Of a DNA stretch of 21,813 bases, positions 870 to 21,813 are shown in pieces (the first letter of the stretch is position 1; each line of letters opens with the position of its first letter). The DNA is taken from IMG/VR virus record IMGVR_UViG_3300044608_001966, positions 1 through 21,813 of that record; one strand, given 5' to 3'. The position numbers and the translations under genes were made by a program. Origin of the DNA: a virus. The notes under the pieces are model-generated. The model saw only the letters and a program-made list of their open reading frames with translations. It was not told the origin of the DNA and made no database searches.

Positions 870-1199
870 TCACGCTGGCTGATCCACTTCTGGGCGTGGC
901 CATAGCACCCGGACAGACCGTGGGACATGCTGTCGCAGTTCGATGGCGCCCAGAATCTGCAGACTCTTGAAATGAACTTGCACCGATGACGTCGATGCAT
1001 ACCCCAACTGTTGGCATACATCGCGAATGGATGGGGGGATTCCATTTTGGTCGATGTAACTGCGGATGGCATCGAGACAGCGCTTTTGCGCCTGCGTCAG
1101 GCCTTGCTCCTTGTCGATTTCTGCTGGCTCCTTGTCGATTTCTGCTGGCGATGGTGATGGCGACATGGATTGGTGATGTCGTTGGCTGGGCATGACCAT
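870..1199 (-). CDS. LexA-type winged-helix DNA-binding protein without peptidase domain
   Basis: The protein has 109 residues. Residues about 34-98 match the N-terminal DNA-binding domain of LexA: opening LTQAQKRCLDAI, then GIPPSIRDVCQQLGY with the recognition helix ASTSSVQVHFKSL, then a beta-wing ending HVPRSVRVL. The C-terminal S24 autoprotease of true LexA is absent; the protein ends 11 residues after the wing, so it cannot self-cleave by the usual route. The N-terminus is low-complexity (SPSPSP) and holds a duplicated heptapeptide, PAEIDKE twice. Start is the ATG at 1197-1199; later ATGs at 1193 and 1166 are possible. It lies 21 nt downstream of the sigma gene on the same strand, so the two are probably co-transcribed. 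It could be a repressor or a competitor for host LexA sites; the target is unknown. Confidence 0.82.
   Translation of the reverse strand: MVMPSQRHHQSMSPSPSPAEIDKEPAEIDKEQGLTQAQKRCLDAIRSYIDQNGIPPSIRDVCQQLGYASTSSVQVHFKSLQILGAIELRQHVPRSVRVLWPRPEVDQPA
1106..1147. repeat. Perfect 21-bp tandem duplication inside the LexA-like gene
   Basis: A 21-bp unit at 1106-1126 is repeated exactly at 1127-1147. Its length keeps the frame and doubles the heptapeptide PAEIDKE in the N-terminal tail, outside the winged-helix fold. Confidence 0.95.
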
Positions 1200-1220
1200 A
1201 TCCCGAATGATGCACCAGTG

Positions 1221-2183
1221 CTAGGGGGGTGTCGGGAGGAGGGACGGCTGCCAGAACTCCCCGGGGTTTCTCGGCTCCTCAGCCTCTGTCTTCGCCTGTG
1301 GCTTTTCAGTGTGCTTCCCGTTGTCTAGCAAATCTCGGGCCATCAGGATCGCGAGTTCCTCTTGCCTCACGGCCGTTCGCACAGTGATTCCCATCGCCAC
1401 GCTGATCTCCTTGTAGCACTGCCCTGCTAGTCGCCGCTCCATCACCTCCTGCAACAGCGGCCAGGGCCGCAACACTGCGACAACCACTTCCCATTCGCTC
1501 CCATCAGCGCTCGTCGCTTGATTGCCTGCTGGCGCTACGACGAAATTCATCAACGGATCGCTATTCTCATCCCTGGCGGCATCAAGCGAAACCACTTGAT
1601 ACGCGGCAGCCGCTTCTCGCAAAATCACCAGGTCGCCAACCGTGCTCACTCCGGCAATCCCCGCTTCAAGCGTCTCGGCAGCGGTGGGAGGCCTGCCTGC
1701 ACGTACAGTAAATGCCTCTACCCATTGCCGTAGCCGATGCATGGATTGGCTGCGTTTTGTCGGGATGCGAATTCCGCCGCTGGAATGGATCAGTCTTGTC
1801 ATGCTCTGCCGGATCCACAGGCTGGCATAGGTAGAGAATGTGTATCCCAATGCCGGGTCGAACTTTTCGGCAGCCCGGCACAGGCCTATCGCCCCCTCCT
1901 GAATCAGATCCTCAACATCAAGCACCGCTACCGATCTCACCGAAAATGAGCGAGCTTCTTTGGCCACAAGCAACATGTTCCGACTGACCAACTGATCTCG
2001 TGCGCGCTCTCCTGCTCGCTGGAGTTTCCAGGGTGGTTTCGTGACGCCTGCTGCTCTCTCCTCCATTGACGGCTCCCAGTCCAGCCAGGCCCTGATGGCG
2101 CGGCCCAGCAGCACCTGTTCCTCCCGCGTCGGGATTGGCAGCCGCCCGTAGGACTGCAGCATCGCATCGAGCGAACCACCCAC
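1221..2183 (-). CDS. Sigma-70 family RNA polymerase sigma factor, phage-borne
   Basis: The protein has 320 residues. Residues 5-35 resemble region 1.2. Residues 65-141 are region 2: LVSRNMLLVAKEA, then LDVEDLIQEGAIGLCRAAEKFDP, then the core-binding and -10 recognition stretch YTFSTYASLWIRQSMTRLI ending IRIPT. Residues about 145-175 are a region 3 remnant (RAGRPPTAAE). Region 4 (about 235-285) is recognisable but divergent: YKEISVAMGIT is followed by VRTAVRQEE where the usual factor has RERVRQIE, so -35 recognition should differ from consensus. The insert between regions 1.2 and 2 (AWLDW...RAGERARDQL) resembles alternative sigma factors of marine and freshwater Synechococcus. The start is GTG at 2183; ATG at 2162 is an alternative, and neither has a clear ribosome-binding site. 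It diverges from the portal gene. Role inferred: a switch to phage promoters. Confidence 0.88.
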   Translation of the reverse strand: MGGSLDAMLQSYGRLPIPTREEQVLLGRAIRAWLDWEPSMEERAAGVTKPPWKLQRAGERARDQLVSRNMLLVAKEARSFSVRSVAVLDVEDLIQEGAIGLCRAAEKFDPALGYTFSTYASLWIRQSMTRLIHSSGGIRIPTKRSQSMHRLRQWVEAFTVRAGRPPTAAETLEAGIAGVSTVGDLVILREAAAAYQVVSLDAARDENSDPLMNFVVAPAGNQATSADGSEWEVVVAVLRPWPLLQEVMERRLAGQCYKEISVAMGITVRTAVRQEELAILMARDLLDNGKHTEKPQAKTEAEEPRNPGEFWQPSLLPTPP

Positions 2184-2283: not shown

Positions 2284-4230
2284 GTGACAATCGGTTTCCT
2301 GCGGTCGGATCCCGGGTCTGGGTATCGCCTGGACGGTGCGCTGATCAACGTGCTGACGGGCCTGGGCACAGCCAAGGACCGAAATGAGGCCATTGGCATC
2401 AAGCGCAGCCAGATCCTTTCCGAGGCGCAGGTCAACGCGCTGTATGAGCAGTCCTGGCTGATTCGTCGCATCGTCGACAAATTGCCGCAGCAAGGCACCC
2501 GCAGCGGCTGGGACCTCAGCGTGGGCGACGACACTTCGAGCCGAATGAAAAAACAGCTGGACGATCTTGTCGGCTGGACTGAAGAGCTGAAATTGCGTAA
2601 GGCGCTGAACGCGGCCGCGGCCTACAGCCGCCTTTACGGCGGCGGGGCCATCGTCATCGTCGCGGATGACCGAACCCCAATCGATCAGCCCCTCAATCTC
2701 AAGCGGTTGAGGACGTTGCACGGCTTATACGCGATCGATCGCCACCGGCTTTACCCCTCCGCCGGCTGGTCAGGCATTGGCGAACCGGAGCGATACTGGT
2801 TTTGGACCCAGCACGATCGGGACCTGCAGACGCTGGACAAGCGGGCCGCCGCCAGTCAGGTCACGAGCGCCTGGGTGGCCATCACCGACGCCACCCAGGT
2901 GGACATCCATGCCAGCCGGGTGATTCGCCTCGAGGGTTTGCCCTGCTCCTGGCGCTCTCAACAGGAGCGGCAATCGTGGGGCGTTTCCGTGGTGGAATTG
3001 TGCTGGGACGTCTTCAAGCGCTACGAGACCGGCCAGCAATCGGCTGCCGACATTCTCCATGACTTCGATCTGGTGGTGCATAAGCTGCCTGGCTTGGCCA
3101 ACATGCTCGCCGCCGGCGGCGAAGACAAGCTGCGTCAGCGGTTGCAGGCCAATGCCATGGCCCGCAGCACCATTGGCGCCTACCTCCTCAACGACAACGA
3201 GGAGCTGACCAACTTCACCCGTTCGGCGGCTGGGATCGCCGACATCCTCGCCAGCCTCAAGAGCGAGATCACCGGCGCAAGTGGCCTCCCCCACACCCTG
3301 CTGTGGGGCGAAAGCCCCTCTGGGCTGGGTGCTGATGGCCGCAGTGAGCAGGCGGCATTCGGCAACGACGTGGCCGACTGGCAGGCCCAACACCTCATGG
3401 AGCCGCTGAAGCAGATCTACAAGATCGCCATGGCTTGCTCTGATGGCCCCTGGAAGGGGAAGGCGCCGCCGCCAGATTGGGAGATCTCCTTCCGCCCCAC
3501 CTACACCCCCACGGAGGATGAGCAAGCCGATCTGCGGCAGAAGGTGACCGCGTCCGACAGCCAATACATCCAGGCTGGAGTTCTGCAGCCCAACGAGGTG
3601 GCCCTGGCACGGTTCGGGAAGCCGCGGTTCAGCCTGGACACCACCCTGCTGAACCGCGAGGCCGACGGATCGATCCCTCAGCCGGAGCAGCAGCCCGTGG
3701 AGTTCGGCGGCAGCCTCGCAACTGATCCGGCTGCGGCCATTGATCAGCCGCCTGCAGATCTTGCTGTGCCCGATGTGGCGCCATTGGAGCCCCCAGAGCG
3801 TCGCGACGCGGAAGACGACGAGCCCTGCTGTGACGCCTGTGAAGCTCGTGCAGAGGCGCTGGCACAGCAGATCACCAACCACCGCGGCCGCCGCCGCCGC
3901 CGGCGTGATGAGGAGCCTCGGAACGATGCCGCTGGCCAGATCCATCAGATCCTCGGAGTGAGCGTGCGGATGGATGGTCCTGGCATCGGCCGCCTGCAGG
4001 GCCCCTATGGACAGAACCTCCCTTATCCCGTGGCGGTGGGGCCGGACCTGAGTGGGGCCTGGGAGGTATTCGAGCCCTCCACCGGCGCCTATCTGCTGGC
4101 CCTGGGGCACCAGCACCAGCGGGGCCTGCGGGATGCCGTCGGACCCCAGGTCAGCATTCGCCGAATCGACGCGGTTGATCTGGTGGCCATGGGCGCGATC
4201 TGCGATGCCTACCTTGCCGGGGACACTTGA
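2284..4230 (+). CDS. Phage portal protein, DUF1073-type, with C-terminal extension
   Basis: The protein has 648 residues. Portals form the dodecameric ring at the packaging vertex. The first ~450 residues fit the DUF1073 portal family: EAQVNALYEQSWLIRRIVD, a glycine-rich YSRLYGGGAIVIVADD, ASRVIRLEG, SWGVSVVELCWDVFKRYE and TLLWGESPSGLGADGRSEQ. The family usually ends near residue 450-480. Here about 150 more residues follow: an acidic stretch with CCDAC, an arginine run (GRRRRRRDEE, encoded by a GCC-type repeat at about 3885-3905) and a distinct C-terminal piece of unknown role. The GTG start at 2284 is chosen because an in-frame TGA lies at 2263 and conserved sequence begins soon after. No strong Shine-Dalgarno is visible. 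It is the first gene of the head operon. Confidence 0.88.
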   Translation: MTIGFLRSDPGSGYRLDGALINVLTGLGTAKDRNEAIGIKRSQILSEAQVNALYEQSWLIRRIVDKLPQQGTRSGWDLSVGDDTSSRMKKQLDDLVGWTEELKLRKALNAAAAYSRLYGGGAIVIVADDRTPIDQPLNLKRLRTLHGLYAIDRHRLYPSAGWSGIGEPERYWFWTQHDRDLQTLDKRAAASQVTSAWVAITDATQVDIHASRVIRLEGLPCSWRSQQERQSWGVSVVELCWDVFKRYETGQQSAADILHDFDLVVHKLPGLANMLAAGGEDKLRQRLQANAMARSTIGAYLLNDNEELTNFTRSAAGIADILASLKSEITGASGLPHTLLWGESPSGLGADGRSEQAAFGNDVADWQAQHLMEPLKQIYKIAMACSDGPWKGKAPPPDWEISFRPTYTPTEDEQADLRQKVTASDSQYIQAGVLQPNEVALARFGKPRFSLDTTLLNREADGSIPQPEQQPVEFGGSLATDPAAAIDQPPADLAVPDVAPLEPPERRDAEDDEPCCDACEARAEALAQQITNHRGRRRRRRDEEPRNDAAGQIHQILGVSVRMDGPGIGRLQGPYGQNLPYPVAVGPDLSGAWEVFEPSTGAYLLALGHQHQRGLRDAVGPQVSIRRIDAVDLVAMGAICDAYLAGDT

Positions 4231-5690
4231 TGACCATCCTGCATACCCACGACTTCAGACCTGGGGACATGATTCAGAGTCTGACGCCTCCTGGCAACCA
4301 AGCACCTCAAGCTGAAAATGATGGCAGCCATAAGACAGTCCTACCCTGGCTGTCAAAAGGCGAGCCGATGCATTTATCTCAGTCCTTGCCGGAACGGATT
4401 GACGCATTGCAGCGCAAGTGCACCACCGGCTACGGCTGCGGCGCGGCATGCATCAGCCTGCGAAAAGAGTGCCGCACCAGCCCCCGGGACACGATCGGCA
4501 AGGTTCGGCTGAACCGGCTGCTGGAGCTGGCTGCCGTGGGTGGATCGAACCAGAAGGGCATCAACCAGGTGAAGCCGAAAGAGGCCGCTGAGCTGGCTGA
4601 GGGCATTTCAGCCCAGCGAGGCGAGCGTGCAGCACAGCTGCGCAACGCACGCCAGCAAACAAAGGCGCCGCCATCAAACCAGGAGGCCGCGGCGGAGCAG
4701 AAGCCTGCCGTAGCCCCCAAGCCTTCCGCAGAGCAAGCGCCCCAGAAGGGCGGTGCCTTGGCGCTGCGCCAGCAACCACAAGAGCAGCGGCGGTCGGGCC
4801 CAGCTACGCCGGATGAAAAATATGCGGGCAAAGCAGATGATGCAAGCGTTACAGCCTATGCAAAGGAAAAGGCAAAACAACTCTTGAACGATCCACAAGC
4901 ATGGGAAAACTCTGTATTTGTACAAAACCAGACCAAGGATGATCGCTTTGGTCATGCTGTAGTAAATGGCGACGACGCCACGGCTCGCCGAGCATTTAAC
5001 TCATATTTCAATGGTATGCTTAAAACTCGAGAGGCCGAGCTGAAGCGGGGTCACTCATTCTCGACTGACAGGCCGGACGAAATCGAAAAGAAACTCGAGA
5101 AAGCAAAAGTGTCTAAGAGTAAAAACAAAGAGAAGACAGTGGCGAGCCTCACAAAGAAGCTTGCCGAAGCCAAGCAGCAGTTAGAGGATGCCAGGGTTTT
5201 TGTTGAAGAAACGTACCCACGTATGAAGGCAATGTCGGACGACGAGAAAATTGCCTACGCCAGAAACCGCGCTAAAAAGAACGTGGATAGGGTTATTCAG
5301 TACGGCATACGTGATCTTAAGTCGGAAAGCCGTGGCGGCAATGAGGTTGCTGCAGTTGCAGACTTTCTACGTGTTGAGCAAGGCGGCAAGCGCAAGGGAG
5401 TCGCCGAGCTGCTAGGGGAGGATTCAGCAGATGATATGGATGTGATTCGTGCTCAGCTCACCGGCAAGGGCACATCAGAAGGAGCGTTGGGGCTCAAGCC
5501 CGGCGTTCAGCCCACACGAAATGAGCTGAAGTCCGCCTACCGGAAAGCCGCTGCCAAGAGCCACCCCGATGCTGGCGGCTCGCCTGAAGAGTTCAGAATG
5601 ACCCAGCAGGCCTATGAGCGACTGAAGAAAAAGTACAAATATGATTCGCTCATGGCACGGCTTGATGCGCTGCGCGCCCGTTGCTGCTGA
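4230..5690 (+). CDS. Four-cysteine module protein with C-terminal J domain (putative polyvalent/ejected protein)
   Basis: The protein has 486 residues from the ATG at 4230, which overlaps the portal stop as TGATG. An alternative ATG at 4368, with AAAAGG 7 nt upstream, gives 440 residues and places the module near the N-terminus. From 4230, residues about 56-110 hold the CX5CX3CX6C module (Cys 64, 70, 74, 81) and its basic helix. A Gln/Pro/Ala-rich linker (about 135-200) and a charged, coiled-coil-prone middle (EIEKKLEKAKVSKSK) follow. Residues about 421-473 resemble a J domain: ELKSAYRKAAAKSHPDAGGS with the invariant HPD (H445), then EEFRMTQQAYERLKKKY. J domains stimulate Hsp70 ATPase, so a link to host DnaK is plausible. 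The middle (about 4810-5450) is more AT-rich than its surroundings. The protein ends DSLMARLDALRARCC, like the start of another module. Confidence 0.8.
   Translation: MTILHTHDFRPGDMIQSLTPPGNQAPQAENDGSHKTVLPWLSKGEPMHLSQSLPERIDALQRKCTTGYGCGAACISLRKECRTSPRDTIGKVRLNRLLELAAVGGSNQKGINQVKPKEAAELAEGISAQRGERAAQLRNARQQTKAPPSNQEAAAEQKPAVAPKPSAEQAPQKGGALALRQQPQEQRRSGPATPDEKYAGKADDASVTAYAKEKAKQLLNDPQAWENSVFVQNQTKDDRFGHAVVNGDDATARRAFNSYFNGMLKTREAELKRGHSFSTDRPDEIEKKLEKAKVSKSKNKEKTVASLTKKLAEAKQQLEDARVFVEETYPRMKAMSDDEKIAYARNRAKKNVDRVIQYGIRDLKSESRGGNEVAAVADFLRVEQGGKRKGVAELLGEDSADDMDVIRAQLTGKGTSEGALGLKPGVQPTRNELKSAYRKAAAKSHPDAGGSPEEFRMTQQAYERLKKKYKYDSLMARLDALRARCC
4389..4530 (+). repeat. Cys-module copy 1 (in the J-domain protein)
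   Basis: Encodes ERIDALQRKC..., then CX5CX3CX6C with cysteine codons at 4419, 4437, 4449 and 4470, then a TSPRDTIGKVRLNRLLELAA helix. Bases 4411-4484 are identical to 6695-6768 in the next gene. Confidence 0.93.
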
Positions 5691-5691
5691 G

Positions 5692-8265
5692 ATGAATCGG
5701 CGGGCTTCGGCTGATAGGGCGGTGTTGTTGCAGCACCGGATCGATGCCGTGCGCCGTCAGGTTCAGTCCCCTGATCAGCTAGCGCTGGATCTGAGTGGGG
5801 GGGGAGCCACAGACGGAAACCAGGCGGGCAACGGCGAACCCTGTGGGCAGGGCTGGATCAGCCGGGACAAGACCTGCCACAAGGGCCAAGGAGCAGCCAG
5901 CCCCGCCAACCGGCCCAACGAGGCCAAACGCAGCAAGCCAAAGGAGACCATCCTCTTCCCGGAGCCCATCGTGGGGCCCAGCGGCGCCAAGCTCACCGCC
6001 TACACCTGGCAGTGGACGCTTACCGAGGACGTGGATCACCGCGGGGAACCGGTTGAGAAGCGGGTGTCGGATTGGGAGAAAAGCATCGCCAGCGTCGAAA
6101 CCGGCAGGAATGTCGTCCATCAATTTCAGGTGGACGTGAACGGCGAAACCCGCACTGTTAGCGCTGAATCCGCCCTGAAGCTGATGGGCTTCCTCAGCGA
6201 AGGCGACCGCAAGGCCTTCGGCAGCCTCAAGAGCTCCGCCAGGACAGTGGCCCGTCTGCGCATGGCCCAGCAAGAGCTGGACCAGCTGGAAAAACGTTGG
6301 CAGAAAGACTGGGACGATGTGGAGGCGCTGCCTCGCCCCCCAGTGGAGGTTGGCGAGTGGTCAGAGGAACCGCCCGGTTGGCCACGGGAGGGCTATCGAC
6401 GCCGCACCTGGCGAGCCGGAGACGTTGAGGTAGAACAGATCTGGAATCAACTTGGTGTTGATAGCGACCAGGACGAGGCTGCGCACTTATTTGCCCAATG
6501 GAAGGCCAGCGAGATGAAGAAACGCGGCTGGGACTACACAGGCCAAAGACAGAGATCAATGAGGCGCCACATTGATTACAACCGAGGCGACTTGATCAAG
6601 CGGCTTGCCAGGGCGGAGGCCAAGCTGATGAACCAGGCCCAGTTCGATCGCAATAGCAAGGTCGACGGACTCAATGCACGCATTGACGCCCTCAAGCGCA
6701 AGTGCACCACCGGCTACGGCTGCGGCGCGGCATGCATCAGCCTGCGAAAAGAGTGCCGCACCAGCCCCAGCTCGACGATTGGCAAGCAACGCCTCAGGCG
6801 ACTTTTGGCCATTGCCGCTGGAGAGAAGGCGAAGCAGCGGGGCATTGCGCCAGTGAAAGCCACCGAAGCCAGCGCGATGGCCGCGGCCATCACCGACCAG
6901 CGCAGGGAAACGGCCCAGCAACTGAAAGGGCAGAGAAAGCAATCTGGGCTGATCCCCACCGCCCTGCCGTTCACCGATGCCATGGCCGCCCGGATCCGGA
7001 AGGGCATCGAGGAGCGCACCGCCACCACCGGCACCGTCAACTACGACGGCAAAGATCTGGCCGCGGCAATGCTCAAAGTGGCGCAGACTCCGGAAGGTGA
7101 AAACATGCGCAAGGCCCTTGCCTTCATGGAAGAGGCGGGAATCCTGGTGAACATCAATGCGAAGTTCACCGATGAGGTTGAGCGCATCACCGGCAAACCG
7201 GCCAGCGAGCTGCCGTGGACTCGGCCGCTGGAGCTCGCCAAGTTCGTTCGAGAGGCTGGCCTGGTCTCAGATGAGCGACTGGAGTGGCTGAAAAGAGACC
7301 AGACACAGGCAGGTCGGGCAATGTTGAGAAAAGCCGAAATCATCCGCAACCCGCCGAAACCAAGTCCAGAGGAAAAGGTCTACAAGAAAAATTACGAAGG
7401 CATGAAGGCTATTTACAAGGAAAAAGAGGAAGAGTTTGAGCGCAGCGTGCGTGATGGTTGGAGATCGCCAGAGGAGAAGAAAGATGTGCTGTGGATGGTG
7501 AAAAGAGATCTGGACAACCAGCGCAAGCGCTATCTTGCCCATCGGGACGGCAGACTGAATGAGATCAAGTGGGCGGCGCAGGACTTTATCAATGGTGATA
7601 CAGTAGGGCTTTCGGCACGTGACAACGGTGGAAGCTATGCGTCAGGGCAAAAGAAATACAACGCCGTCAGCGGGGATGATAAATCATGGGCTGGCGTGTA
7701 TCGAGTCAACGCAGGAGAAACAGAGTTTGCAAACATGCAAAGTCTTTATAGCAAGCACCTGGCTGCATACCTGCCGGAAAAGCTGAAAGGCATTGAAGAC
7801 AACTCCCGAAACTTTGACCTGCTGAACGGTCCTATTGGCTTCGGCAAGGGGTTTACACACGCCGAACAGGCGCTCAACATCCACATTCACGAGCTTGGCC
7901 ACGCTGTCGACAATTTTGCCGATGTCATTGTCCGCAAGGTTTCTGACATGGAAAGCAGAACAGCAGATGGAGCCTGGTCCGGCGCGACAAAGCAAGTGCT
8001 GTCTCACGGTGTTTCCTGGCATAATCACAAAAGCAATAGGCCAGAGGCTGTGTTGAGGTCACTTTCCCAGCGACGTGGCCCATCGGAGTATTCTTTAACC
8101 AATGACAATGAATTGTTTGCCGAATCATTTGCTTCCTGGGTGGTCGCACCGAAGGCGTTGAAGCAACATCACCCCGATCTCTATGCCTGGGTGGAGGACC
8201 GCTTCACAAAGGCTCGGCATACCATGGTCAAACATGGCCACCTGCGATTCGAGGAGGAGCGCTGA
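5692..8265 (+). CDS. Four-cysteine module protein with C-terminal HExxH zinc metallopeptidase domain
   Basis: The protein has 857 residues. The start is the ATG at 5692, one base after the previous stop; the frame extends upstream to 5641 but inside the preceding gene. Residues 51-62 (CGQGWISRDKTC) match the second half of the cysteine module, with Trp in place of one Cys. Residues about 325-400 carry a full module (Cys 338, 344, 348, 355). The last ~200 residues hold the zincin: IHIHELGHAVDN (H733, E734, H737), then NDNELFAESFASWV (E807, E811) and HPDLYAWVEDRF near the end. The HExxH plus downstream ExFA helix is typical of anthrax-lethal-factor-type gluzincins in polyvalent phage proteins. 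Role inferred: proteolysis during morphogenesis or after ejection into the host. The region about 7320-8150 is clearly more AT-rich than the N-terminal half. Confidence 0.82.
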   Translation: MNRRASADRAVLLQHRIDAVRRQVQSPDQLALDLSGGGATDGNQAGNGEPCGQGWISRDKTCHKGQGAASPANRPNEAKRSKPKETILFPEPIVGPSGAKLTAYTWQWTLTEDVDHRGEPVEKRVSDWEKSIASVETGRNVVHQFQVDVNGETRTVSAESALKLMGFLSEGDRKAFGSLKSSARTVARLRMAQQELDQLEKRWQKDWDDVEALPRPPVEVGEWSEEPPGWPREGYRRRTWRAGDVEVEQIWNQLGVDSDQDEAAHLFAQWKASEMKKRGWDYTGQRQRSMRRHIDYNRGDLIKRLARAEAKLMNQAQFDRNSKVDGLNARIDALKRKCTTGYGCGAACISLRKECRTSPSSTIGKQRLRRLLAIAAGEKAKQRGIAPVKATEASAMAAAITDQRRETAQQLKGQRKQSGLIPTALPFTDAMAARIRKGIEERTATTGTVNYDGKDLAAAMLKVAQTPEGENMRKALAFMEEAGILVNINAKFTDEVERITGKPASELPWTRPLELAKFVREAGLVSDERLEWLKRDQTQAGRAMLRKAEIIRNPPKPSPEEKVYKKNYEGMKAIYKEKEEEFERSVRDGWRSPEEKKDVLWMVKRDLDNQRKRYLAHRDGRLNEIKWAAQDFINGDTVGLSARDNGGSYASGQKKYNAVSGDDKSWAGVYRVNAGETEFANMQSLYSKHLAAYLPEKLKGIEDNSRNFDLLNGPIGFGKGFTHAEQALNIHIHELGHAVDNFADVIVRKVSDMESRTADGAWSGATKQVLSHGVSWHNHKSNRPEAVLRSLSQRRGPSEYSLTNDNELFAESFASWVVAPKALKQHHPDLYAWVEDRFTKARHTMVKHGHLRFEEER
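5842..5877 (+). repeat. Degenerate half-module, CGxxWISxxKxC
   Basis: Twelve residues align without gaps to the CGAACISLRKEC half of the full module: the first Cys, Gly, Ile, Ser, Lys and last Cys match, and the middle Cys is Trp. It lies near the N-terminus of the metallopeptidase protein. Confidence 0.6.
6676..6820 (+). repeat. Cys-module copy 2 (in the metallopeptidase protein)
   Basis: Encodes ARIDALKRKC..., CX5CX3CX6C with cysteine codons at 6703, 6721, 6733 and 6754, then SPSSTIGKQRLRRLLAIAAG. Bases 6695-6768 equal copy 1 (4411-4484), while 6762-6800 equal copy 4 (20713-20751), so the copy is a mosaic. Confidence 0.94.
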
Positions 8266-8513: not shown

Positions 8514-9899
8514 ATGGCTGACCGGTCCCTAGAGCTGCTCGAGGAGCTCGACCAGCAGCTGCAGGGCCTGGAGAGTGCCCAGCTGCGCAAGCTGCGCGGG
8601 ATCTTCGATGAGGCACTGCGCCGCACCATCCGGAGCATCACCGATCGGCTGGAGCGGATCGCCGAGCAGCCCGAGTACGACCCGGCCACCACCCCCGGCG
8701 CATTTCTCGGCAGCACTCCCGACGGCCCGGTGCCCATCACCCCCCTGCAGAAGAACCAGGCCAGCCTCTACCTGCAGGGCCAGCTCGCCCAGGATCTGCA
8801 GGCGATCATCAACCGCTTCCCGGCCGACCGGGCCGCCAACGCAGGCCTCAACCGTGAGCTCACGGAGCTCTACAACCGCGCCCAGGACCTCGCCACCGAG
8901 TACGCCCTCGAGCTCTCTCGCGACATGCTCCCCCCGGCCGCCGTGCTCTCCGGCAGCCACCCTGCTCTGCAGGATCCCCAGCTGCCGCCCGCCGCCCCCC
9001 CGGCCCCCACCGATGCGCCCGCCCCGGGCAGCCCCTACCAGGAAGGGCAGAGCTTCACCCGGCTGCTCAACATGGGCGCCACCATCGCCGCGGCCGAACG
9101 CGACTTCAAAACCCTCAGCGCCAATTACCGGCGCCAGCGCAACGCCGCCACCGATGAGCGGGTGAGGGCATCGAAGGATTACTTCTTCCGCTGGTGGCGC
9201 GACTGGGGCGACACGGTGCAGTTCGAGACCGCCACCCAGCTGGCCACCGGCGTGGACAGCCGCAAGCTGGCGCGCACCCTGAGGGCACGCCTCCCACACA
9301 TCAACGACGCCTTCCGAGGCCGCGCCGAAACCATCGCTCGCACCGAAACTCACATCGCCGCTGGCGAGGCCCGCGAGCGCACGTTCCGCCGCGTCGGCGC
9401 CGGCTTCGTGCGGTACGTGGCCACGGCCGACGATCGGGTCTGTGAGTTCTGCGCCCCCCGGATGGGGTGCCTCTACTACGCCGGCAGCGTGAAGACCCCC
9501 ATCCACCCCCGCTGCCGGTGCGCCCTGTCCCCGATCACCCTGGAAGCCCTGGTGATCCAGAACGAGCTGGCCAGCGGCCGCGGCGAGCGTTGGGAGGCGC
9601 AGCAGCAGGCCCTGGCTGCGGCGACACGTCAGAAGTACGACCAGGCCAGCAGCAGGCCATGGCGGCCGATCGGCGGCACCGGTGAGCCCCGCGGCCCGGG
9701 GGACTTCCCTCTGATGGAGCGCACCGCTCTGCCGGCCACCACCCCCCGGCCGAACCAGGCCAACAACCCGGCGAACGGCGGCGCCAGGCCCTGGCCATCG
9801 GGGGATCCGGTGTGGTCCCCCTCCAGGGGCTGGATCAATGCCGCCGCCCGCGAGGCCTACGAGGCAATGGTCCGCGAGGTGGCGGAGCTGGAGGCGTGA
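8514..9899 (+). CDS. Phage head morphogenesis protein, MuF (Mu gpF-like) family
   Basis: The protein has 461 residues. Residues about 190-340 are the MuF domain: KDYFFRWW..., then GRAETIARTETHIAAGEARER, the core DDRVCEFCAPRMGCLYYAG (C310, C313, C319) and the closing IHPRCRC (H331, C334, C336). This Cys/His arrangement is the family hallmark and probably binds a metal. MuF proteins are minor head proteins near the portal in Mu- and SPP1-type phages, needed for head assembly or DNA ejection. The N-terminus (1-60) is a charged helix, and about 145-180 is Pro/Ala-rich. A ~120-residue Pro/Gly-rich tail follows the domain, with no fused toxin visible. It is the last gene of the head operon and is convergent with the gene at 9901-10281, the stops being one base apart. 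Confidence 0.92.
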   Translation: MADRSLELLEELDQQLQGLESAQLRKLRGIFDEALRRTIRSITDRLERIAEQPEYDPATTPGAFLGSTPDGPVPITPLQKNQASLYLQGQLAQDLQAIINRFPADRAANAGLNRELTELYNRAQDLATEYALELSRDMLPPAAVLSGSHPALQDPQLPPAAPPAPTDAPAPGSPYQEGQSFTRLLNMGATIAAAERDFKTLSANYRRQRNAATDERVRASKDYFFRWWRDWGDTVQFETATQLATGVDSRKLARTLRARLPHINDAFRGRAETIARTETHIAAGEARERTFRRVGAGFVRYVATADDRVCEFCAPRMGCLYYAGSVKTPIHPRCRCALSPITLEALVIQNELASGRGERWEAQQQALAAATRQKYDQASSRPWRPIGGTGEPRGPGDFPLMERTALPATTPRPNQANNPANGGARPWPSGDPVWSPSRGWINAAAREAYEAMVREVAELEA

Positions 9900-10634: not shown

Positions 10635-11636
10635 ATGGCTTCGATCAATGTCCTGCGCAACCGCCTCTATCTGCTGGCCAAGGTGCCGAGGCGAGACGGC
10701 GGCCCAGGCCTTGAGCAAACGCGGATAGCACTCAGGCTCGACGACACGCCGGTCAATCGCAGGGCAGCAGCCAAACAGCTGCAAACCCTGGAGCGGCAAT
10801 TGGAGCGCGGAGAGTTCAGCTGGGCCTACTGGAGTGATGCGCCAGAAGGAGTGACGTGGCGTGAAGCGATCGCGCGCCTGTATCGGGCCAAGGTTGTTTT
10901 GGGGCACACGGGGGAGAGCACCTGGCAGATCAACTATTTGGGCCGGTTGCGACAGATCCCCCCGAGCAGCCTCTGCACAACTGAGAGCCTGGCGGCCGCA
11001 TTGCAGCGCTACGACAGGGCCAGCTGCAGCTACAAGGAGCTGTACTACCTGTTGCGGCACATTGCCAGGCTGATCTCGGTGCCGTTCCCGGAGGTGCCGT
11101 TGCCCAGCTATCGGGAGGCTCAGCTGGTTGCGGTGCCGACGGATCAGCAGATCATCGACTGGGTGGAAAGCGCGCCAGCCAGCAGTCGCTGGTACTGGGG
11201 CATGATGGCGACTTTTGGGCTGAGACCTCACGAAATTGAGGGCTCCACACTGATTGATCGCGATTACTGCCAGGTCAGCGAAAACACCAAAACTGGATTC
11301 CGAACTGTGGTACCCCTGCCGCGGGAATGGGTTGACCGGTTTGGGCTGCAGGATCGGCGGTTAAGGCCACGGCTGGAGGGCAGCACCGACCGACCGGATA
11401 ATGCATCGAAATGGCTAAGCAAGGAATTGCGAAAAATGAATATTCCTTGGCGACCCTATGCCTTGCGGCATGCCTATGCAGCCAGGCTGTGGAGAGAAGG
11501 CGGTTCGCGGCTGGACATCTTCACCGCTGCTCGGCTGATGGGCCATAGCCCGCAGCAGCACAGCAAAACCTATCGATCCCACATCCAACCCCATCACATC
11601 GCCGAGACAGCCGAGCGTGCGTTACGAGGGGGATAG
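10635..11636 (+). CDS. int: Tyrosine recombinase / phage integrase
   Basis: The protein has 333 residues. The catalytic set is visible in the C-terminal half: R197 in FGLRPHEIEG, a lysine candidate K219 in ENTKTGFRTVV, box II YALRHAYAARLW (R278), H304 in LMGHSPQQHS and the nucleophile Y313 in KTYRSHI. The usual first histidine of box II is Tyr (Y275). Residues about 70-150 form the core-binding, SAM-like domain (WREAIARLYRAK...). The first ~65 residues are a basic region that may be the arm-binding part. Length is normal for the family. The start ATG at 10635 is well placed, though no strong Shine-Dalgarno precedes it. Its 3' end overlaps the convergent HTH gene by 15 bp, an arrangement that could couple integrase and excisionase expression. 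It would integrate and excise the phage genome. Confidence 0.9.
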   Translation: MASINVLRNRLYLLAKVPRRDGGPGLEQTRIALRLDDTPVNRRAAAKQLQTLERQLERGEFSWAYWSDAPEGVTWREAIARLYRAKVVLGHTGESTWQINYLGRLRQIPPSSLCTTESLAAALQRYDRASCSYKELYYLLRHIARLISVPFPEVPLPSYREAQLVAVPTDQQIIDWVESAPASSRWYWGMMATFGLRPHEIEGSTLIDRDYCQVSENTKTGFRTVVPLPREWVDRFGLQDRRLRPRLEGSTDRPDNASKWLSKELRKMNIPWRPYALRHAYAARLWREGGSRLDIFTAARLMGHSPQQHSKTYRSHIQPHHIAETAERALRGG

Positions 11637-14888: not shown

Positions 14889-15374
14889 ATGCGCATCAGA
14901 ACCGACCAGCCTTCCAGCGGCAAGCCGTTGCAGCTGCTGATCCCTTCAGCGGGGTTTGTGCCCAACGGCTGGACCACCCTGGCTGAGGCTCCAGATTTCT
15001 CCATCCCGAGCACTGGCGACGCAGGGGTTAGCCTGGATCCGGCGGACACCGGTCGAGAGCTCAGGCCTGGAGAGGTGTTCCTCGAGGCCCCGCTGACGTG
15101 TTTGAACCTCGATACGGCGACCCGCTGGGTGGAGTTGCAGATTCTCTCCCAAGCGAATCATGCGGTGCCGCTGACCCCTCAAATCAGCATCCCGGCCAAG
15201 GAATCGGTCTATCTGCCGATTCAGGGCTTGCGTTTGCTGAAGACCAGCTTTGCTGCGGCCAGCGGCGATCGGCTGCAGATCAGGGCCAGCACTGGAAGCT
15301 CGATCAAGGTGTTCGGCTCTGCGGTCGAGCTTGAGGCGCTCACCCATGCGCCGGATTCGGAGGCCCAACCATGA
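14889..15374 (+). CDS. Unknown structural protein between virion protein and tail fibre
   Basis: The protein has 161 residues, beginning 2 nt after the previous stop. Its composition suggests a compact beta-rich fold (VFLEAPLTCLNLDTATRWVE, TPQISIPAKESVYLPIQG, DRLQIRASTGSSIKVFGSAV). The pattern of a short hydrophilic N-terminus followed by alternating strands suits a fibre-attachment or baseplate accessory protein, but no family is recognised. Its stop overlaps the next start as ATGA, so its dosage is probably linked to the fibre. Confidence 0.72.
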   Translation: MRIRTDQPSSGKPLQLLIPSAGFVPNGWTTLAEAPDFSIPSTGDAGVSLDPADTGRELRPGEVFLEAPLTCLNLDTATRWVELQILSQANHAVPLTPQISIPAKESVYLPIQGLRLLKTSFAAASGDRLQIRASTGSSIKVFGSAVELEALTHAPDSEAQP

Positions 15375-17338
15375 ACAACCTCCGCCTGGGCTCAGGTCGA
15401 CAATTTCGCAGCGCGGCGTTGGTGGAGATGCCGCTACCGCTGGCCTATGACGCGGCCCTGCTGCCTGGCACTCGCATCCTCGGGAGCGACGGCCAGATCT
15501 ACGAGTCCATGCGCGATCCCGTCAGCGGGTTGTACCAGTGGAGGGTGAGAGCCCAGGGTGAACGCGGCCCAGCTGTTGAGCTGCAAAAGAGCGCCACCCA
15601 CATTCAGTGGCGGCCAGAGGGCAGCACAGGGCCATGGTTTGATCTGGTGCCGCTGGAGGACTTGCTGGGGCCCCAAGGTGACCAAGGCGACCCCGGGCCG
15701 CAGGGGGCCGGGCTGAGCTTTCAAGGCAGTGTCAACTCTGTGGCCGATCTGCCCACATCGTCGACGCTGGGATATGGCTATTTGGTGCTTGCCACCACCC
15801 CCCCGCACCTGTGGCTTTTCAACGGCACAACCTGGTTGGATGCCGGCCCGATTCAGGGTCCCAAGGGGGACGACGGCGATCCAGGCCCAGCTGTCGAGCT
15901 CCGCACCACCGCAACCGAAATCCAATGGCGCATCGCCGGGGCCGCGAACTGGACCACGTTGCTCCTTCTTGCCGACATCAAGGGCGATGACGGCACCGAC
16001 GGCGCTGACGGCTCATCGGTCGAGCTGCGGAAAACCGCGTCAGAAATTCAGTGGCGGCTGGTTGGTGCGCCAGCCTGGATCACGCTTGTCACACTGGACG
16101 ACATCCGAGGCCCTGCCGGAGACCAGGGCGACCAGGGCCCTCCAGGTGCCGGTTTTGCCTATCAAGGCTCCGTGGCGACGGTGGCAGCGCTGCCAGTGCC
16201 ATCGTCGCAGGGCTTCGGGTTCAAAGTGCAGGCCACCGGAGATCTGCACATCTTCAATGGCATCGCCTGGGTCAACGCGGGTCCGCTGCAGGGACCCAAA
16301 GGCGACACGGGCGACCAGGGCAACCAGGGGCCAGCCGGTCCTGGTTTCAGCTATCAGGGCACGGCGGCTTCGGTTGCAGCCTTGCCGACGCCATCGACAC
16401 AAGGGTTTGCCTTCAGAATTGGCTCAGATCTCTACATTTACAACGGCATCGATTGGGTCAATGCGGGGCCGTTGCTGGGCCCCAAAGGTGACCAAGGTGA
16501 CCAGGGCGTCCAAGGGGTGCCCGGTAACGGTTTTGCCTATCAAGGCTCCGTGGCGACGGTGGCAGCGCTGCCAGTGCCATCGACGCAGGGCTTCGGGTTC
16601 AAAGTGCAGGCCACCGGAGATCTGCACATCTTCAATGGCATCGCCTGGGTCAACGCGGGTCCGCTGCAGGGGCCCCAGGGCGAGAAAGGCGACAAGGGCG
16701 ACACGGGCAACACGGGCACAGCAGCGACGATTCAGCTGGGGACTGTCTCAACGGGTGCTGCCGGCAGCGCTGCTTCGATCACAAACTCTGGAACCCCTCA
16801 GGCTGCAGTTTTTAACTTCACCATCCCTCGGGGCGACAAGGGCGACAAGGGCGACGCGGGCACAGCCGCCACTTATTCCAGCAGCAATCCACAGCCATTA
16901 GGCCCCCAACCGGCACCTGGCTCAGATGAAAGTGCGGCTCGGATCGATCACGTCCACCAATTGCAGTCGATAACTGGAATTGTGCCATTGTCGACGCCAA
17001 CCGGAACAATCGCTTTAGGCGAACTGGATAATTCTATATTTCCCGAAGCGCGGACGCTGGTGTCAATCCCGATCTGGAGCGTCAAAACAGCACCAGCCGG
17101 TTTAGCCCTGCAATTTGACATTCGGGTGGGAGGAACAAGCATCTTTTCGACGTTGCCAACCATTGCAATAGGCGGCACAAGCAGCAGCTCAACTACACAG
17201 GCTGTGTTTTCTACAGCATTCTTGGCTGCAAATCAATTGATCTCTGCCGGATCAGTTGTGACGTGGCATTGCACACAAGCCGCAACCAGCGGAGGGGCAG
17301 GCCTGAAATGCGCAATGACTACAAGGAGGGCAGTATAA
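15371..17338 (+). CDS. Collagen-like modular tail fibre protein
   Basis: The protein has 655 residues. Short collagen-like Gly-X-Y runs (GPQGDQGDPGPQG, GPKGDDGDPG, IKGDDGTDGADG, RGPAGDQGDQGPPG, GPKGDTGDQGNQGPAGPG, GPQGEKGDKGDTGNTG) alternate with two kinds of small beta modules. One is a (V)ELRKTASEIQWR type, present three times; the other is an (A/S)YQGSVATVAALP...GDLHIFNGIAWVNAGPLQ type, present four times. Near the end is GTPQAAVFNFTIPRGDKGDKGD, then IDHVHQLQ before a unique ~150-residue C-terminus that is probably the trimer head or receptor-contact part. The layout suggests a long trimeric fibre. Module number could vary by recombination because two modules are nearly identical in DNA. 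The start overlaps the previous stop; the stop overlaps the next ATG (TAATG). Confidence 0.9.
   Translation: MNNLRLGSGRQFRSAALVEMPLPLAYDAALLPGTRILGSDGQIYESMRDPVSGLYQWRVRAQGERGPAVELQKSATHIQWRPEGSTGPWFDLVPLEDLLGPQGDQGDPGPQGAGLSFQGSVNSVADLPTSSTLGYGYLVLATTPPHLWLFNGTTWLDAGPIQGPKGDDGDPGPAVELRTTATEIQWRIAGAANWTTLLLLADIKGDDGTDGADGSSVELRKTASEIQWRLVGAPAWITLVTLDDIRGPAGDQGDQGPPGAGFAYQGSVATVAALPVPSSQGFGFKVQATGDLHIFNGIAWVNAGPLQGPKGDTGDQGNQGPAGPGFSYQGTAASVAALPTPSTQGFAFRIGSDLYIYNGIDWVNAGPLLGPKGDQGDQGVQGVPGNGFAYQGSVATVAALPVPSTQGFGFKVQATGDLHIFNGIAWVNAGPLQGPQGEKGDKGDTGNTGTAATIQLGTVSTGAAGSAASITNSGTPQAAVFNFTIPRGDKGDKGDAGTAATYSSSNPQPLGPQPAPGSDESAARIDHVHQLQSITGIVPLSTPTGTIALGELDNSIFPEARTLVSIPIWSVKTAPAGLALQFDIRVGGTSIFSTLPTIAIGGTSSSSTTQAVFSTAFLAANQLISAGSVVTWHCTQAATSGGAGLKCAMTTRRAV
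16151..16293 (+). repeat. Tail-fibre module repeat, copy A (143 bp)
   Basis: Matches 16529-16671 across 143 bp with one mismatch that I could find (TCGTCGCAG versus TCGACGCAG). It encodes the YQGSVATVAALP...NAGPLQG module. Confidence 0.93.
16529..16671 (+). repeat. Tail-fibre module repeat, copy B (143 bp)
   Basis: Second copy of the 143-bp unit at 16151-16293, 378 bp downstream. The module between them (16350-16480) is related but diverged, so the two identical copies point to recent conversion or duplication. Confidence 0.93.
17323..17330 (+). promoter_or_regulatory. Strong Shine-Dalgarno fixing the start at 17338
   Basis: AAGGAGGG lies 7 nt before the ATG at 17338. Most other starts in the window have weak or no such site, so this gene may be translated at a high level, or it may retain signals from another background. 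Confidence 0.8.
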
Positions 17339-18566: not shown

Positions 18567-18836
18567 ATGGATCGCCGAACCGAGATGGTGCAGTTGGCAA
18601 CTCAGCTTCTTAGCGAGCAAATCAGGCCGGTGCAGATCGTTTCGATCTCTGACGCCAACGGTGAACCCCAGGGGGAGTTCATCTCCAATCAGCAGCGGTT
18701 CACGTTCAAATTCACAAAGAGTGGCATGATCACCTACCGACCTAAGGCGCAGGGCGGCAGCGAGGAAGGTCGCTCAGATAGTGCGCGAGAGCGTCTTGAA
18801 CGCATAAAGGCTCGCTTGCGGAGTCTCTATCGATGA
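18567..18836 (+). CDS. Small unknown protein before the giant module gene
   Basis: The protein has 89 residues. The N-terminal half looks beta-rich (VQIVSISDANGEPQGEFISNQQRFTFKFTKSGMITYRPK). The C-terminal third is a charged helix with regular leucines (SARERLERIKARLRSLYR). The start is ATG at 18567 after a 36-nt gap with no clear ribosome-binding site. Its stop overlaps the next ATG (ATGA), linking its expression to the large gene downstream. No family is recognised. Confidence 0.66.
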   Translation: MDRRTEMVQLATQLLSEQIRPVQIVSISDANGEPQGEFISNQQRFTFKFTKSGMITYRPKAQGGSEEGRSDSARERLERIKARLRSLYR

Positions 18837-21813
18837 GCCGCGCTCAGAGGCTGCAGGAGCGACTCTCAGCCGTCGAATCTCGACTGGCGCTCAGCCTCCG
18901 CAGACCAATGCACACTGGCCTCGCGCATCTGGCGCCTTTGCGGCAACCGGGCCTGCGGCAGGACTCTGGCGACCCGGTTTCGTCCCTGCTCCGTTCCCTG
19001 CTGGCGGAAGTGCTGCCGGGCGCACAGGTGTTGGACTGGCGGCAGGAGGCCGGCGGCCACACGGGCCGAATGGTGGCCGATGGGCTGGTGTATCGCTGGC
19101 GGGTGGATGGTGATGGTGTGGCCTATCGGCCTGCCTGGGATGGAGTGCGTCAGCGTGGCTGGGAGCTGCGCAGCGATTCGTTCCTGGAGCTGCGCAGCGA
19201 TTCGTTCCTGGAGCTGCGTGCACCTGGTGCCCGGATGGACAGGCGGGGCAGCTCCCAGCCAACAAGCGGCACAAAGCGCAAGTGCAGCACCGGCTACGGA
19301 TGCGGCGCGGCATGCATCAGCCTGCAGAAGGAGTGCCGGATCAACCCTGGTAGCGCCATCGGGAAAAACCGTCTGCGGCGCCTCCAGCAGCTGGCCGCCA
19401 CGGGCGACAAGGGCGCCGAGACCACCGCCACAGCGCTCTCAGCCTCCAGGGGGGCCCCGGCTGCCGAGCGGCTGCGGGATCGCAACGCCAAGCGGGTAGA
19501 GCAGCTTCTGGCCCGGCCCGAAATTGCAGAGTTCTTGCGCACCGGCAAGCTGCCCCAGGGCGCCAGCGCTTCCACTGAGCCCGGCACCGTTCGGAACATG
19601 AGCCCCGGCGAGATCGTTTTCGACCCGGGACGCTTCCAGTACAAGCTCAACGCGACAGAGGGCACAGGAGAGGTGGGCAGCCTCTCTGGCGTTCGGAAAT
19701 GGGATCCGAACCTCGCCGGCGTGATGAGCGTCTGGAAAGACCCTGCCGATGGCAGGATCTACGTGGTGAACGGGCACAACCGGCTCAGCCTGGCGAAACG
19801 CCTTGGCGCCGAAGAGGTGACCGTGCGATTCCTCAAGGCAGCCAACGCCACGGAGGCCCGGGCGATCGGCGCCATGCAGAACATCGCCGAAGGTGCCGGC
19901 ACCCCCATGGATGCCGCCAAGTTCTTCCGCGACACCGGCATCAAGACCCAGAAGGATGTTGAGGCCCGGGGCCTGCCGCTGGGCAGCGGCCAGGCAGAAA
20001 AAGGCCTGCGGCTCAGCAAGCTGCCCAGCGACGTGTTCAACGCCGTGGTGCGTGGCGATCTGAGCGTGAACCGCGGCGCGATCCTCGGCGGCTCCGGCCT
20101 CGATGAGGTGAAGCAGCGCGAGGTGTTCAAGATGATCAGCTCCCGAAAGGCGATCGCTGATCAGACCCTGCTGGAGCTGGTGGAGCACGCCGCTGCGAGC
20201 GAGCAACGCACCCAGACCACGATCGACCTCTTCGGGATGAGCCAGGAGGCCAAAGACAACCTGTTCACCCGGGCCAAGCTCTCCGCCGGCCTGACGGCCA
20301 AAATCGCTCGCGAGAAGCGGTTGTTCAGCACCGTCTCGAAGGCCAAGGCGGCCACCAGCCTGCAGGAGAAGGGTGGCAACGTGATCAACCAGGAGCAAAG
20401 CTCCAAAGTGGCGAGTGAAGCCAGCGAAGCACTGGATGTGTTCAAGCGGCTCAAAAGCGCCAGCGGACCGATCAGCTCCGCTCTCAACCGCGCGGCCGAC
20501 CGGGTGGAGGCGGGGGAATCCGAGAGCACGGTGCGGCAGGAACTTGAGCGGGAGGTGTTTGCCGCTGTGGAGCAAGAGCTGACATCGGCCGGCCTGCGCA
20601 AGCGGCCACGGGCTGACAGCCTGCAGGAGCGGATCGACGCCCTTAAGCGGAAGTGCAGCACCGGCTATGGCTGCGGCAGCGCCTGCATTTCGCTGCGGAA
20701 GGAGTGCCGCAGCAGCCCCAGCTCGACGATTGGCAAGCAACGCCTCAGGCGTCTTTTGGCCATCGCCGCCGGGGAGGGCCCCAAGCAGCGAGGCATCGCT
20801 CCCGTGAAAGCCAAGGAAGCCGGGGAGCTGGCTGCTGGCATTGGGAAGCAGCGGGGGGCCAAAGCCGCACAGCTGCGAATGGTGCGCCAGATCAGCGCTG
20901 AAGCGCCAAACATGACGCCTCGCGAACAGCGGCTGGTCGACCTGGCGAAAAAGCAGCTGACTGCGGCCGATAAGGTGCCAACGCAGTCACCCAAGGCCGC
21001 GGCCAGCCCAGGCGATTTTGGGCTCACCAACCCAAGCCCTCAGACTCCAGGCCAGGCGCCAAAACCGAAGGAGCAAGGTCTCACGACCCAGGACGTGACC
21101 ACCAGCAGCCAACAAGCGGCCTTTGCGCGGCAACAGCAGCAGGCCGCCAGGGCCGCCGGGGATGAGCGCGGCGCACAAGCCTGGCGACAGGAGGAACGCA
21201 CGGTGGAACGCAACCGGCTGGCCAATGCCATCACCACCCGCAACCAAAGCCAGACCGCGCTGTTCGGCGCGACCGAATACGACCAATCCATGCCGCTGCT
21301 TCAGCAGCAGCCTGCCGGGGCCGTTCAACCGCGGCAGACCCCGAAGATCGCTGACGTGTTGAGGCAGACCACCGCCCAGCTCAAGGCGGCGGATGCTCGT
21401 CAAATGGGCATGATCGCCGAGCAGTTGTTCGAGACTTCGTGGACGATCGACCGTCGCACCCGCTTTCGGGGCATGAGCAAAGACCAAGCTCGCGACCAGT
21501 TCAAGGCGGATTTGCTTAAACAAATGCAAGAGCAGGCTGCGTCCCCTGAGGCAGCTGAGCGGGCCGCCGCCATGCGCGACCGCGCTGCAGCGTCTGGTTC
21601 GGTCTCCGGCGCCATGAAAGCTGTGCTCGAGGCCATGCAGGCCCAGGACAAGCGGCTGGAAGACCTGCAACGCAAAGCGATTGATTTGCGCCTTCAGGCG
21701 GAGGAGCAGTTCGGCGACCAAGGCGCGGATCCAACCCTGGGCGGTGGCCGGCCGCGGCGTCGCCTCGGCGGCAGCAAGCGCCGTGATGGCGTGGCTGACA
21801 GCCTGGAGGGCAG
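18833..21813 (+). CDS. Giant Cys-module protein with ParB-like domain (3' end outside window)
   Basis: The frame from ATG 18833 is open to the last base: at least 993 residues, stop not seen. The start overlaps the previous stop (ATGA). Residues 1-110 are unknown, then an ELRSDSFL octapeptide is duplicated (111-126). Module copy 3 follows (Cys 151, 157, 161, 168). Residues about 255-420 resemble ParB-superfamily domains of phage polyvalent proteins: FDPGRFQYKLN, IYVVNGHNRLSLAKRLG (GHNR at 314-317), then EARAIGAMQNIAEG and a helical part. Residues about 420-590 are helical and charged. Module copy 4 follows (Cys 608, 614, 618, 625), then a long Gln/Ala-rich helical segment (YDQSMPLLQQQ, LFETSWTIDRR, LKAVLEAMQAQD-like heptads). 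The visible end, RRDGVADSLEG, looks like the lead-in to another module. Role inferred: virion-borne, multi-domain protein delivered with the DNA. Confidence 0.82.
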   Translation, partial: MSRAQRLQERLSAVESRLALSLRRPMHTGLAHLAPLRQPGLRQDSGDPVSSLLRSLLAEVLPGAQVLDWRQEAGGHTGRMVADGLVYRWRVDGDGVAYRPAWDGVRQRGWELRSDSFLELRSDSFLELRAPGARMDRRGSSQPTSGTKRKCSTGYGCGAACISLQKECRINPGSAIGKNRLRRLQQLAATGDKGAETTATALSASRGAPAAERLRDRNAKRVEQLLARPEIAEFLRTGKLPQGASASTEPGTVRNMSPGEIVFDPGRFQYKLNATEGTGEVGSLSGVRKWDPNLAGVMSVWKDPADGRIYVVNGHNRLSLAKRLGAEEVTVRFLKAANATEARAIGAMQNIAEGAGTPMDAAKFFRDTGIKTQKDVEARGLPLGSGQAEKGLRLSKLPSDVFNAVVRGDLSVNRGAILGGSGLDEVKQREVFKMISSRKAIADQTLLELVEHAAASEQRTQTTIDLFGMSQEAKDNLFTRAKLSAGLTAKIAREKRLFSTVSKAKAATSLQEKGGNVINQEQSSKVASEASEALDVFKRLKSASGPISSALNRAADRVEAGESESTVRQELEREVFAAVEQELTSAGLRKRPRADSLQERIDALKRKCSTGYGCGSACISLRKECRSSPSSTIGKQRLRRLLAIAAGEGPKQRGIAPVKAKEAGELAAGIGKQRGAKAAQLRMVRQISAEAPNMTPREQRLVDLAKKQLTAADKVPTQSPKAAASPGDFGLTNPSPQTPGQAPKPKEQGLTTQDVTTSSQQAAFARQQQQAARAAGDERGAQAWRQEERTVERNRLANAITTRNQSQTALFGATEYDQSMPLLQQQPAGAVQPRQTPKIADVLRQTTAQLKAADARQMGMIAEQLFETSWTIDRRTRFRGMSKDQARDQFKADLLKQMQEQAASPEAAERAAAMRDRAAASGSVSGAMKAVLEAMQAQDKRLEDLQRKAIDLRLQAEEQFGDQGADPTLGGGRPRRRLGGSKRRDGVADSLEG
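19163..19210. repeat. Perfect 24-bp in-frame tandem duplication
   Basis: 19163-19186 is repeated exactly at 19187-19210, doubling ELRSDSFL; the first 8 bases of a third unit follow. It lies between the unknown N-terminal part and module copy 3. Confidence 0.95.
19274..19395 (+). repeat. Cys-module copy 3 (giant protein, first)
   Basis: Cysteine codons at 19283, 19301, 19313 and 19334 give CX5CX3CX6C; downstream INPGSAIGKNRLRRLQQLAA matches the helix of the other copies. The upstream RIDAL lead is missing here, replaced by SQPTSGTKRK. Confidence 0.93.
20621..20770 (+). repeat. Cys-module copy 4 (giant protein, second)
   Basis: Full form: ADSLQERIDALKRK, cysteine codons at 20654, 20672, 20684 and 20705, then SPSSTIGKQRLRRLLAIAAG. 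Bases 20713-20751 equal 6762-6800 of copy 2. Confidence 0.94.

Follow-up and report, generated by a model that had tools for sequence, protein, structure and literature searches.

J-domain proteins encoded by phages (Rki; the DnaJ of jumbo phages, PMC7824862) and polyvalent proteins are both already known. Rki (057w) of phage RB43 was the first functional phage J-domain protein, and established that such a domain, when phage-encoded, is able to act on the DnaK of the host; it is small, comes from a T4-like phage and has its J domain at the N-terminus, and neither head genes nor a peptidase are linked to it in that study (PMC3486835). The DnaJ proteins of jumbo phages have been reported as cochaperones that occur sporadically and on their own, serving folding and assembly and lying outside polyvalent proteins, and their J domain is thought to recruit host HSP70 (PMC7824862). 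Polyvalent proteins are large, multi-domain proteins of portal-terminase phages and are predicted to be injected. Zincins are their commonest domain and a paucity of such proteins has been reported in cyanobacteria, while DnaJ or J domain occurs 0 times in the main text of that study (Iyer et al. 2017, PMC5512222). In MuF polymorphic toxins, effector domains are tied to head-block genes beside the portal (PMC5576092).

Here we describe a protein of 487 residues as an ORF, encoded at 4227-5690 (+) of a 21,813-nucleotide stretch of viral DNA (the window), and compare it with these systems. Like Rki, it is a phage-encoded class III/C J-domain protein with an HPD motif and is predicted to use host DnaK, a role resembling the recruitment proposed for jumbo-phage DnaJ. 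The pairing of an N-terminal J domain with an Rki-type C-terminal domain, which marks the Rki family, is absent from it, and outside the J region we found no similarity to Rki kin, only residues 420-480 matching Aeromonas phage 65 and its kin. Taken with its relatives, the locus resembles those of polyvalent proteins in its zincin, LPD1 (a polyvalent-protein domain by its Pfam name), ART and ParB-like domains and in having these genes near portal and MuF, with terminase, portal and MuF all inside the window. It differs from them in the J domain, in a four-cysteine (Cys4) module outside Pfam and in that the 487-residue protein itself lacks an enzyme domain. As in the MuF polymorphic toxins, effector domains are tied to the head block, but MuF is a separate gene here and no PF04233 match was obtained in the 487-residue protein. 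A literature search, mostly of papers outside subscription, returned no virion-borne J domain. No description was found either of a J domain as a C-terminal polyvalent module coupled to zincins or of the Cys4 module as a hub, the main text of PMC5512222 being within the scope.

The C-terminal J domain and the rest of the protein

The first-pass annotation had proposed, from two peptides, a helix II-HPD-helix III order at the C-terminus of a protein encoded between portal and MuF. Both peptides, ELKSAYRKAAAKSHPDAGGS and EEFRMTQQAYERL, were located at residues 433-466 of ORF 4227-5690, and the C-terminus is confirmed as a genuine J domain whose HPD is intact. The domain lies at 5484-5636 (+), at residues ~420-470 of 487, with the HPD at residues 446-448 (5562-5570), and was recognised by Pfam, phmmer, AlphaFold2 and structure matches. 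In a six-frame search of the window, Pfam DnaJ (PF00226) matched 5487-5636 at 32.4 bits (E 2.1e-9; curated cut-off, 27.8 bits); when the 487-residue protein was searched alone, the score was 27.6 bits (E 3.3e-6), slightly below that cut-off. Human DNAJA1 was a phmmer match of the protein (E 2e-7), and a J profile of the phage relatives matched E. coli DnaJ chains including 5nro_B (E 4e-17), the J domain whose structure was determined in complex with DnaK. Against a profile of other phage J domains, built without the window protein and its sister, the protein scored 53.1 bits, as compared to a best score of 6.3 bits among 2000 whole-protein shuffles and 16.3 bits among 2000 shuffles that kept the HPD. 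Thus, the match cannot be ascribed to chance.

The AlphaFold2 model gave the helix II-HPD loop-helix III hairpin, as the earlier reading of the peptides had anticipated, with pLDDT of 90-96 across residues 421-470. Helix II spans residues 431-445 and carries four K/R against one D/E, and helix III begins at residue 453 and runs to the end of the protein; helix I is vestigial, being reduced to EGAL at residues 417-420. Foldseek matched the model to Tim14 (2guz_A) with probability 1.00 and rmsd of 1.4 A over 53 residues; the accompanying E-value (0.44) is weak, the query having been the full-length model. VIA-align listed many J domains over residues 405-485, including 5nro_B (rmsd 2.7 A over 58 residues), and its best match was Tim16 (2guz_B), a J-like protein without HPD. 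The HPD is invariant across 24 phage J domains, which partly reflects how most of them were found, and it is present in all relatives, including the divergent ones and those found by the Cys4 module alone. In comparison with the sister phage L002, dN/dS of the J region was low.

A DnaJ ortholog was ruled out, since no DnaJ-type domains besides J are present in the 487-residue protein; DnaJ equivalog models reached 20.6 bits against a cut-off of 377, and did so over the J region only. The class A/B layout of N-terminal J domain, G/F region and substrate-binding domain is not seen here, where J is C-terminal, and a J domain without other DnaJ domains, whatever its position, is what defines class C, to which this protein belongs.

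The real start of the protein is likely the ATG at 4368, giving 440 residues, because relatives begin at the matching residue; residues 1-46 of the ORF were modelled with pLDDT under 50. The Cys4 module follows at 4392-4658 (+; residues 56-144), scoring 161 bits to the module profile and also supported by an alignment, and then a middle helical, coiled-coil-like region at 4809-5456 (+; residues ~195-410) with long helices and pLDDT up to 97. Beyond the J domain, a C-terminal extension (5637-5687, +) ends in SLMARLDALRARCC and is common to ~925-residue fusion proteins of related phages. The only recognisable modules are Cys4 and J, and no enzymatic domain was seen.

The window and L002 are identical in DNA at 3500-4300 and from 5600 on (~100% outside the divergent stretch), and 65-80% identical at 4600-5450 within the J-domain gene. 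The boundary of this mosaic is sharp and falls inside one gene, and dS is saturated: the middle region gave dS 2.1 and dN 0.14 (dN/dS about 0.07), as against dS 0.07 in the J part. On these comparisons, we read the middle region as an older allele swapped in by recombination between the conserved Cys4 and J ends. Diversifying selection was ruled out, as an old recombined allele under purifying selection accounts for the divergence. The strength of this purifying selection argues that the gene is functional.

The four-cysteine module and the proteins that carry it

The J-domain ORF begins with a previously unnamed four-cysteine module, CTTGYGCGAACISLRKEC, in which a core of C-x5-C-x3-C-x6-C precedes a basic helical stretch (consensus KC[TS]TGYGCGxACISLxKECR...IGKxRLxRL). 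Four copies occur in the window, at 4392-4658, 6673-6942, 19268-19492 and 20624-20890, distributed over three otherwise different large proteins: the J protein, the zincin protein at 5641-8265 (residues 345-434) and, twice, the ParB-like protein that runs from 18833 to the end. The DNA of these copies is 72-81% identical over 130 nt and is therefore material for recombination. No Pfam family matched the module, and nothing in the PDB matched its model, which is of middling quality (pLDDT 73), at an E below 0.001. The module is part of PHROGs 33618 and 16619 ('minor head protein', also matching the MuF protein).

Outside the window, the module occurs in 34 or more other virus records as well as in the cyanophages PaV-LD and CL131; other Cys4 proteins carry ART (ADP-ribosyltransferase), zeta-toxin, LPD1 and ParB-like domains. 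PaV-LD has seven occurrences of it, of which five fall in genes located between capsid and tape measure. One of these genes is ART-like, and among them are also genes that bear, by annotation, the names 'virion structural protein' and 'minor virion protein'. In CL131, for which 23 virion proteins were identified by LC-MS/MS (PMC6293099), gp044 (weakly), gp047 and gp048 carry the module, again between capsid and tape measure. Both phages thus share with the window the presence of the same module in several proteins, but differ from it in that their genomes are without a J domain, as is that of S-CBS4, another portal-related cyanophage. The proteins that share the module may use it for loading into the virion or for binding zinc.

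Other small elements were noted in these proteins. A second cysteine motif, GEPCGQGWISRDKTCHKGQ, follows the RIDAV stretch at 5695-5900 of the window (residues ~30-90 of the zincin protein); the same type of motif recurs in Cys4 proteins of three other viral loci (L055, L056 and L057) and resembles another small shared module. An 89-residue ORF at 18567-18836, before the ParB-like gene, is kin to the N-terminal domain of the J protein of L055 (35% over 75 aa), where the related domain lies at 5400-5610, and is another shuffled module. Directly 3' of its J gene, L055 also encodes a fusion of a zeta-toxin-type kinase (PF06414, E 6e-25) with Cys4 at 6362-7438.

Relatives, gene neighbourhood and probable host

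The window genes are ordered as terminase, sigma factor (encoded in the opposite direction), portal, J protein, zincin protein, small ORF, MuF and integrase. Terminase lies at 3-869, the sigma factor at 1221-2183 (-) and the portal (PF06381, E 9e-63) at 2284-4230 (+). The MuF minor head protein (PF04233, 37.3 bits) is encoded at 8514-9899 (+), so that the placement of the J gene between portal and MuF in the first-pass annotation holds; a metallopeptidase gene and a single small ORF separate it from MuF. The metallopeptidase, a zincin protein of polyvalent type (5641-8265, +), starts inside or just past the J gene end. It has an N-terminal CGQGWISRDKTC motif, the Cys4 module and, at residues ~736-853, a C-terminal zincin with HELGH...NELFAESFA; Peptidase_M90 (PF06167) matched above cut-off, at 29.3 bits against 26.2, and PF07737 scored 25.2 bits. 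The third Cys4 protein (18833-21811, +), which runs off the window, has its modules at residues 146-220 and 598-686 and a ParB-like domain (phrog_21, E 4e-54).

Some further features of the window were recorded. Between terminase and portal, 870-2183 (-) encodes a LexA-like DNA-binding ORF and the sigma-70-like factor, both strongly divergent from L002, unlike the neighbouring genes; a sigma-like gene between terminase and portal is also present in the viral locus L110. A tyrosine integrase at 10635-11636, in an unusual place between MuF and the tail genes, suggests a temperate phage. A 655-residue collagen-like Gly-X-Y repeat protein (15371-17338), with a 212-nt unit duplicated at 16118 and 16496, is probably a tail fibre.

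Relatives of the J protein were gathered by a Cys4-module search of viral contigs (36 loci) and by a J-based search. The search for the same architecture in other phages, which had been proposed as a check, recovered Cys4-J proteins in other viral loci: a J domain was found in 9 of 33 further records from the Cys4 search, always inside a Cys4 protein. Known isolates with this architecture were not found among 50,697 phage records. The first architecture (window and L002) is Cys4, helical region and J. In the second, known from 19 IMG/VR loci in the J-based search, a single polypeptide of ~925 residues carries Cys4, zincin, LPD1 (45 bits), Cys4 and J, and ends in RLDALRARC like the window protein. 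Such relatives unite LPD1, zincin and J in one protein, as expected of a several-domain polyvalent protein; in the window only Cys4 and J are joined and the zincin is in the next gene. The third comprises proteins of ~340-360 residues, in which a short N-terminal beta-type domain and Cys4 precede J (L055, L056). In another lineage of this type (L110, L111, L117), an RDxxGQF N-terminal tag takes the place of the beta-type domain and Cys4. In L110, the portal is followed by a HEMGH protein and then by the J protein, the latter two sharing the N-terminal tag. In L057, the gene directly 3' of the J fusion encodes a 1238-aa ortholog of the window zincin protein (49% identity over 518 aa). A different fusion, of a J domain with a Kdo/APH-type kinase domain, is seen in a 740-residue viral protein at 3-2225 of L116.

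When all 26 phage J clusters were considered, a zincin motif was fused to J or lay within 3 kb in 4/4 clusters of these architectures and in 0/22 of the others, against a background of 1 in 403 ORFs. The four associations were not accepted as independent, since the window and ~925-residue types share synteny, with an orthologous zincin by the J end, and independent support for the link between J and zincin is estimated at about two genomic settings. In the J tree, the J domains of the ~925-residue type formed one clade (98/96) with those of L055, L056, L110 and L117, and the window J was placed outside it with weak support. A single phage J ancestor for the window and ~925-residue types is thus not supported by the tree, though both genes end in RLDALRARCC, and the separate placements suggest that the slot was filled more than once.

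The phage most likely infects cyanobacteria, a host call made from phage relatives only. The best-scoring portal relatives are those of Synechococcus phage S-CBS4 (the nearest named one, 36.7%), Aphanizomenon phage CL131 and Planktothrix phage PaV-LD; matches to the ParB-like part come from Prochlorococcus phages, and the N-terminal half of the zincin protein matches a Dolichospermum phage. Scans of bacterial genome contigs confirmed no relative.

Possible roles of the J domain

A genuine J domain whose HPD is intact, placed C-terminally in a protein encoded between portal and MuF, is most naturally read as a recruiter of host DnaK. The repeated Cys4 module shared with two other large proteins, the metallopeptidase partner in the next gene and the cyanophage setting add to the first-pass annotation, which mentions none of the three. 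Because relatives fuse J with zincin-LPD1 or place it beside a tagged zincin protein, we take the J domain to be, in all likelihood, a payload of presumably injected phage polyvalent proteins, coupled to a metallopeptidase and present here in cyanophages. The 487-residue protein would then be a class C J-domain protein in a set of Cys4-tagged polyvalent proteins of a cyanophage head-gene block, the module tying it to its zincin and ParB-like sisters and probably marking a shared place in the virion. The tagged proteins would be packaged, leave with the DNA and reach the cell unfolded or partly folded. There, the C-terminal J domain would dock host DnaK through its HPD and basic helix II and trigger ATP hydrolysis close to the delivered polypeptides. 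DnaK may then help to pull in, refold or present them, and the partner metallopeptidase may process either the delivered proteins or host targets. J proteins are known to recruit Hsp70 at translocation channels, as do Tim14/Pam18 and Sec63, which serve us as a working analogy and not as kin. Taken whole, this account of a Cys4-tagged, ejected effector set has, in our estimate, about an even chance of being right.

A late-encoded J protein might just as well work ahead of packaging. As a co-chaperone of the assembly phase, it would recruit DnaK in the producing cell to solubilise the large Cys4 proteins or to load the procapsid at the portal, with no role after ejection. The placement of its gene among the head genes, after portal and before MuF, fits such a function, and so does the prediction that jumbo-phage DnaJ recruits host HSP70 for folding and assembly (PMC7824862). 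Yet the J domains of the relatives are covalently joined to conflict-type domains (zincin, LPD1) and not to capsid or portal domains, and a general need in assembly would be expected to be more widespread, whereas J is not conserved in the portal-related cyanophages S-CBS4, PaV-LD and CL131. Since zincins and LPD1 are hallmarks of polyvalent proteins, the evidence leans to the second role offered in the first-pass annotation, with ejected proteins, over the first, head assembly, and head assembly as the sole role, though not favoured, is retained as a somewhat unlikely rival.

It is also conceivable, and we consider it distinctly unlikely, that the protein serves host takeover, either sequestering or redirecting DnaK in the manner of Rki, a toxic DnaK binder that stabilises sigma32 (PMC3486835), or bringing DnaK-bound host clients to the metallopeptidase and so altering host physiology. 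The coupling of J and zincin in two genomic settings would suit such a takeover, as would the effector-like ART and zeta-toxin domains of sister Cys4 proteins; but Rki is small with an N-terminal J, its relatives (Aeromonas phage 65) match the 487-residue protein in the J region only, and the copies expected in a virion would be few for tying up a chaperone this abundant. That the fold is a mere spacer or docking hairpin acting without Hsp70, as the short helix I and the best VIA-align match to the HPD-less Tim16 might hint, is very improbable in view of the HPD in all relatives, even divergent ones, the basic helix II and the low dN/dS of the J region.

Returning to the ejected-protein role, the more general proposal that a family of cyanophages, along with one or more other lineages of phage, deliver a J-zincin chaperone-protease pair with the genome, fused or co-encoded, and that Cys4 is a common virion-loading tag, is put forward tentatively and is more doubtful than the account of the window itself. 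The question addressed is how large ejected phage proteins fold and become active after passage through a narrow tail. If the proposal is true, host Hsp70 would supply the force for ejected proteins to enter or become active, comparable to what J proteins do at mitochondrial import channels, and the HPD of a J domain carried within such proteins would be a direct point for mutation in asking whether host Hsp70 is involved. The repertoire of phage polyvalent proteins gains from the present finding a J domain together with a new hub module, Cys4, and cyanophages are seen to hold a rich set of polyvalent-type proteins where scarcity had been reported (PMC5512222).
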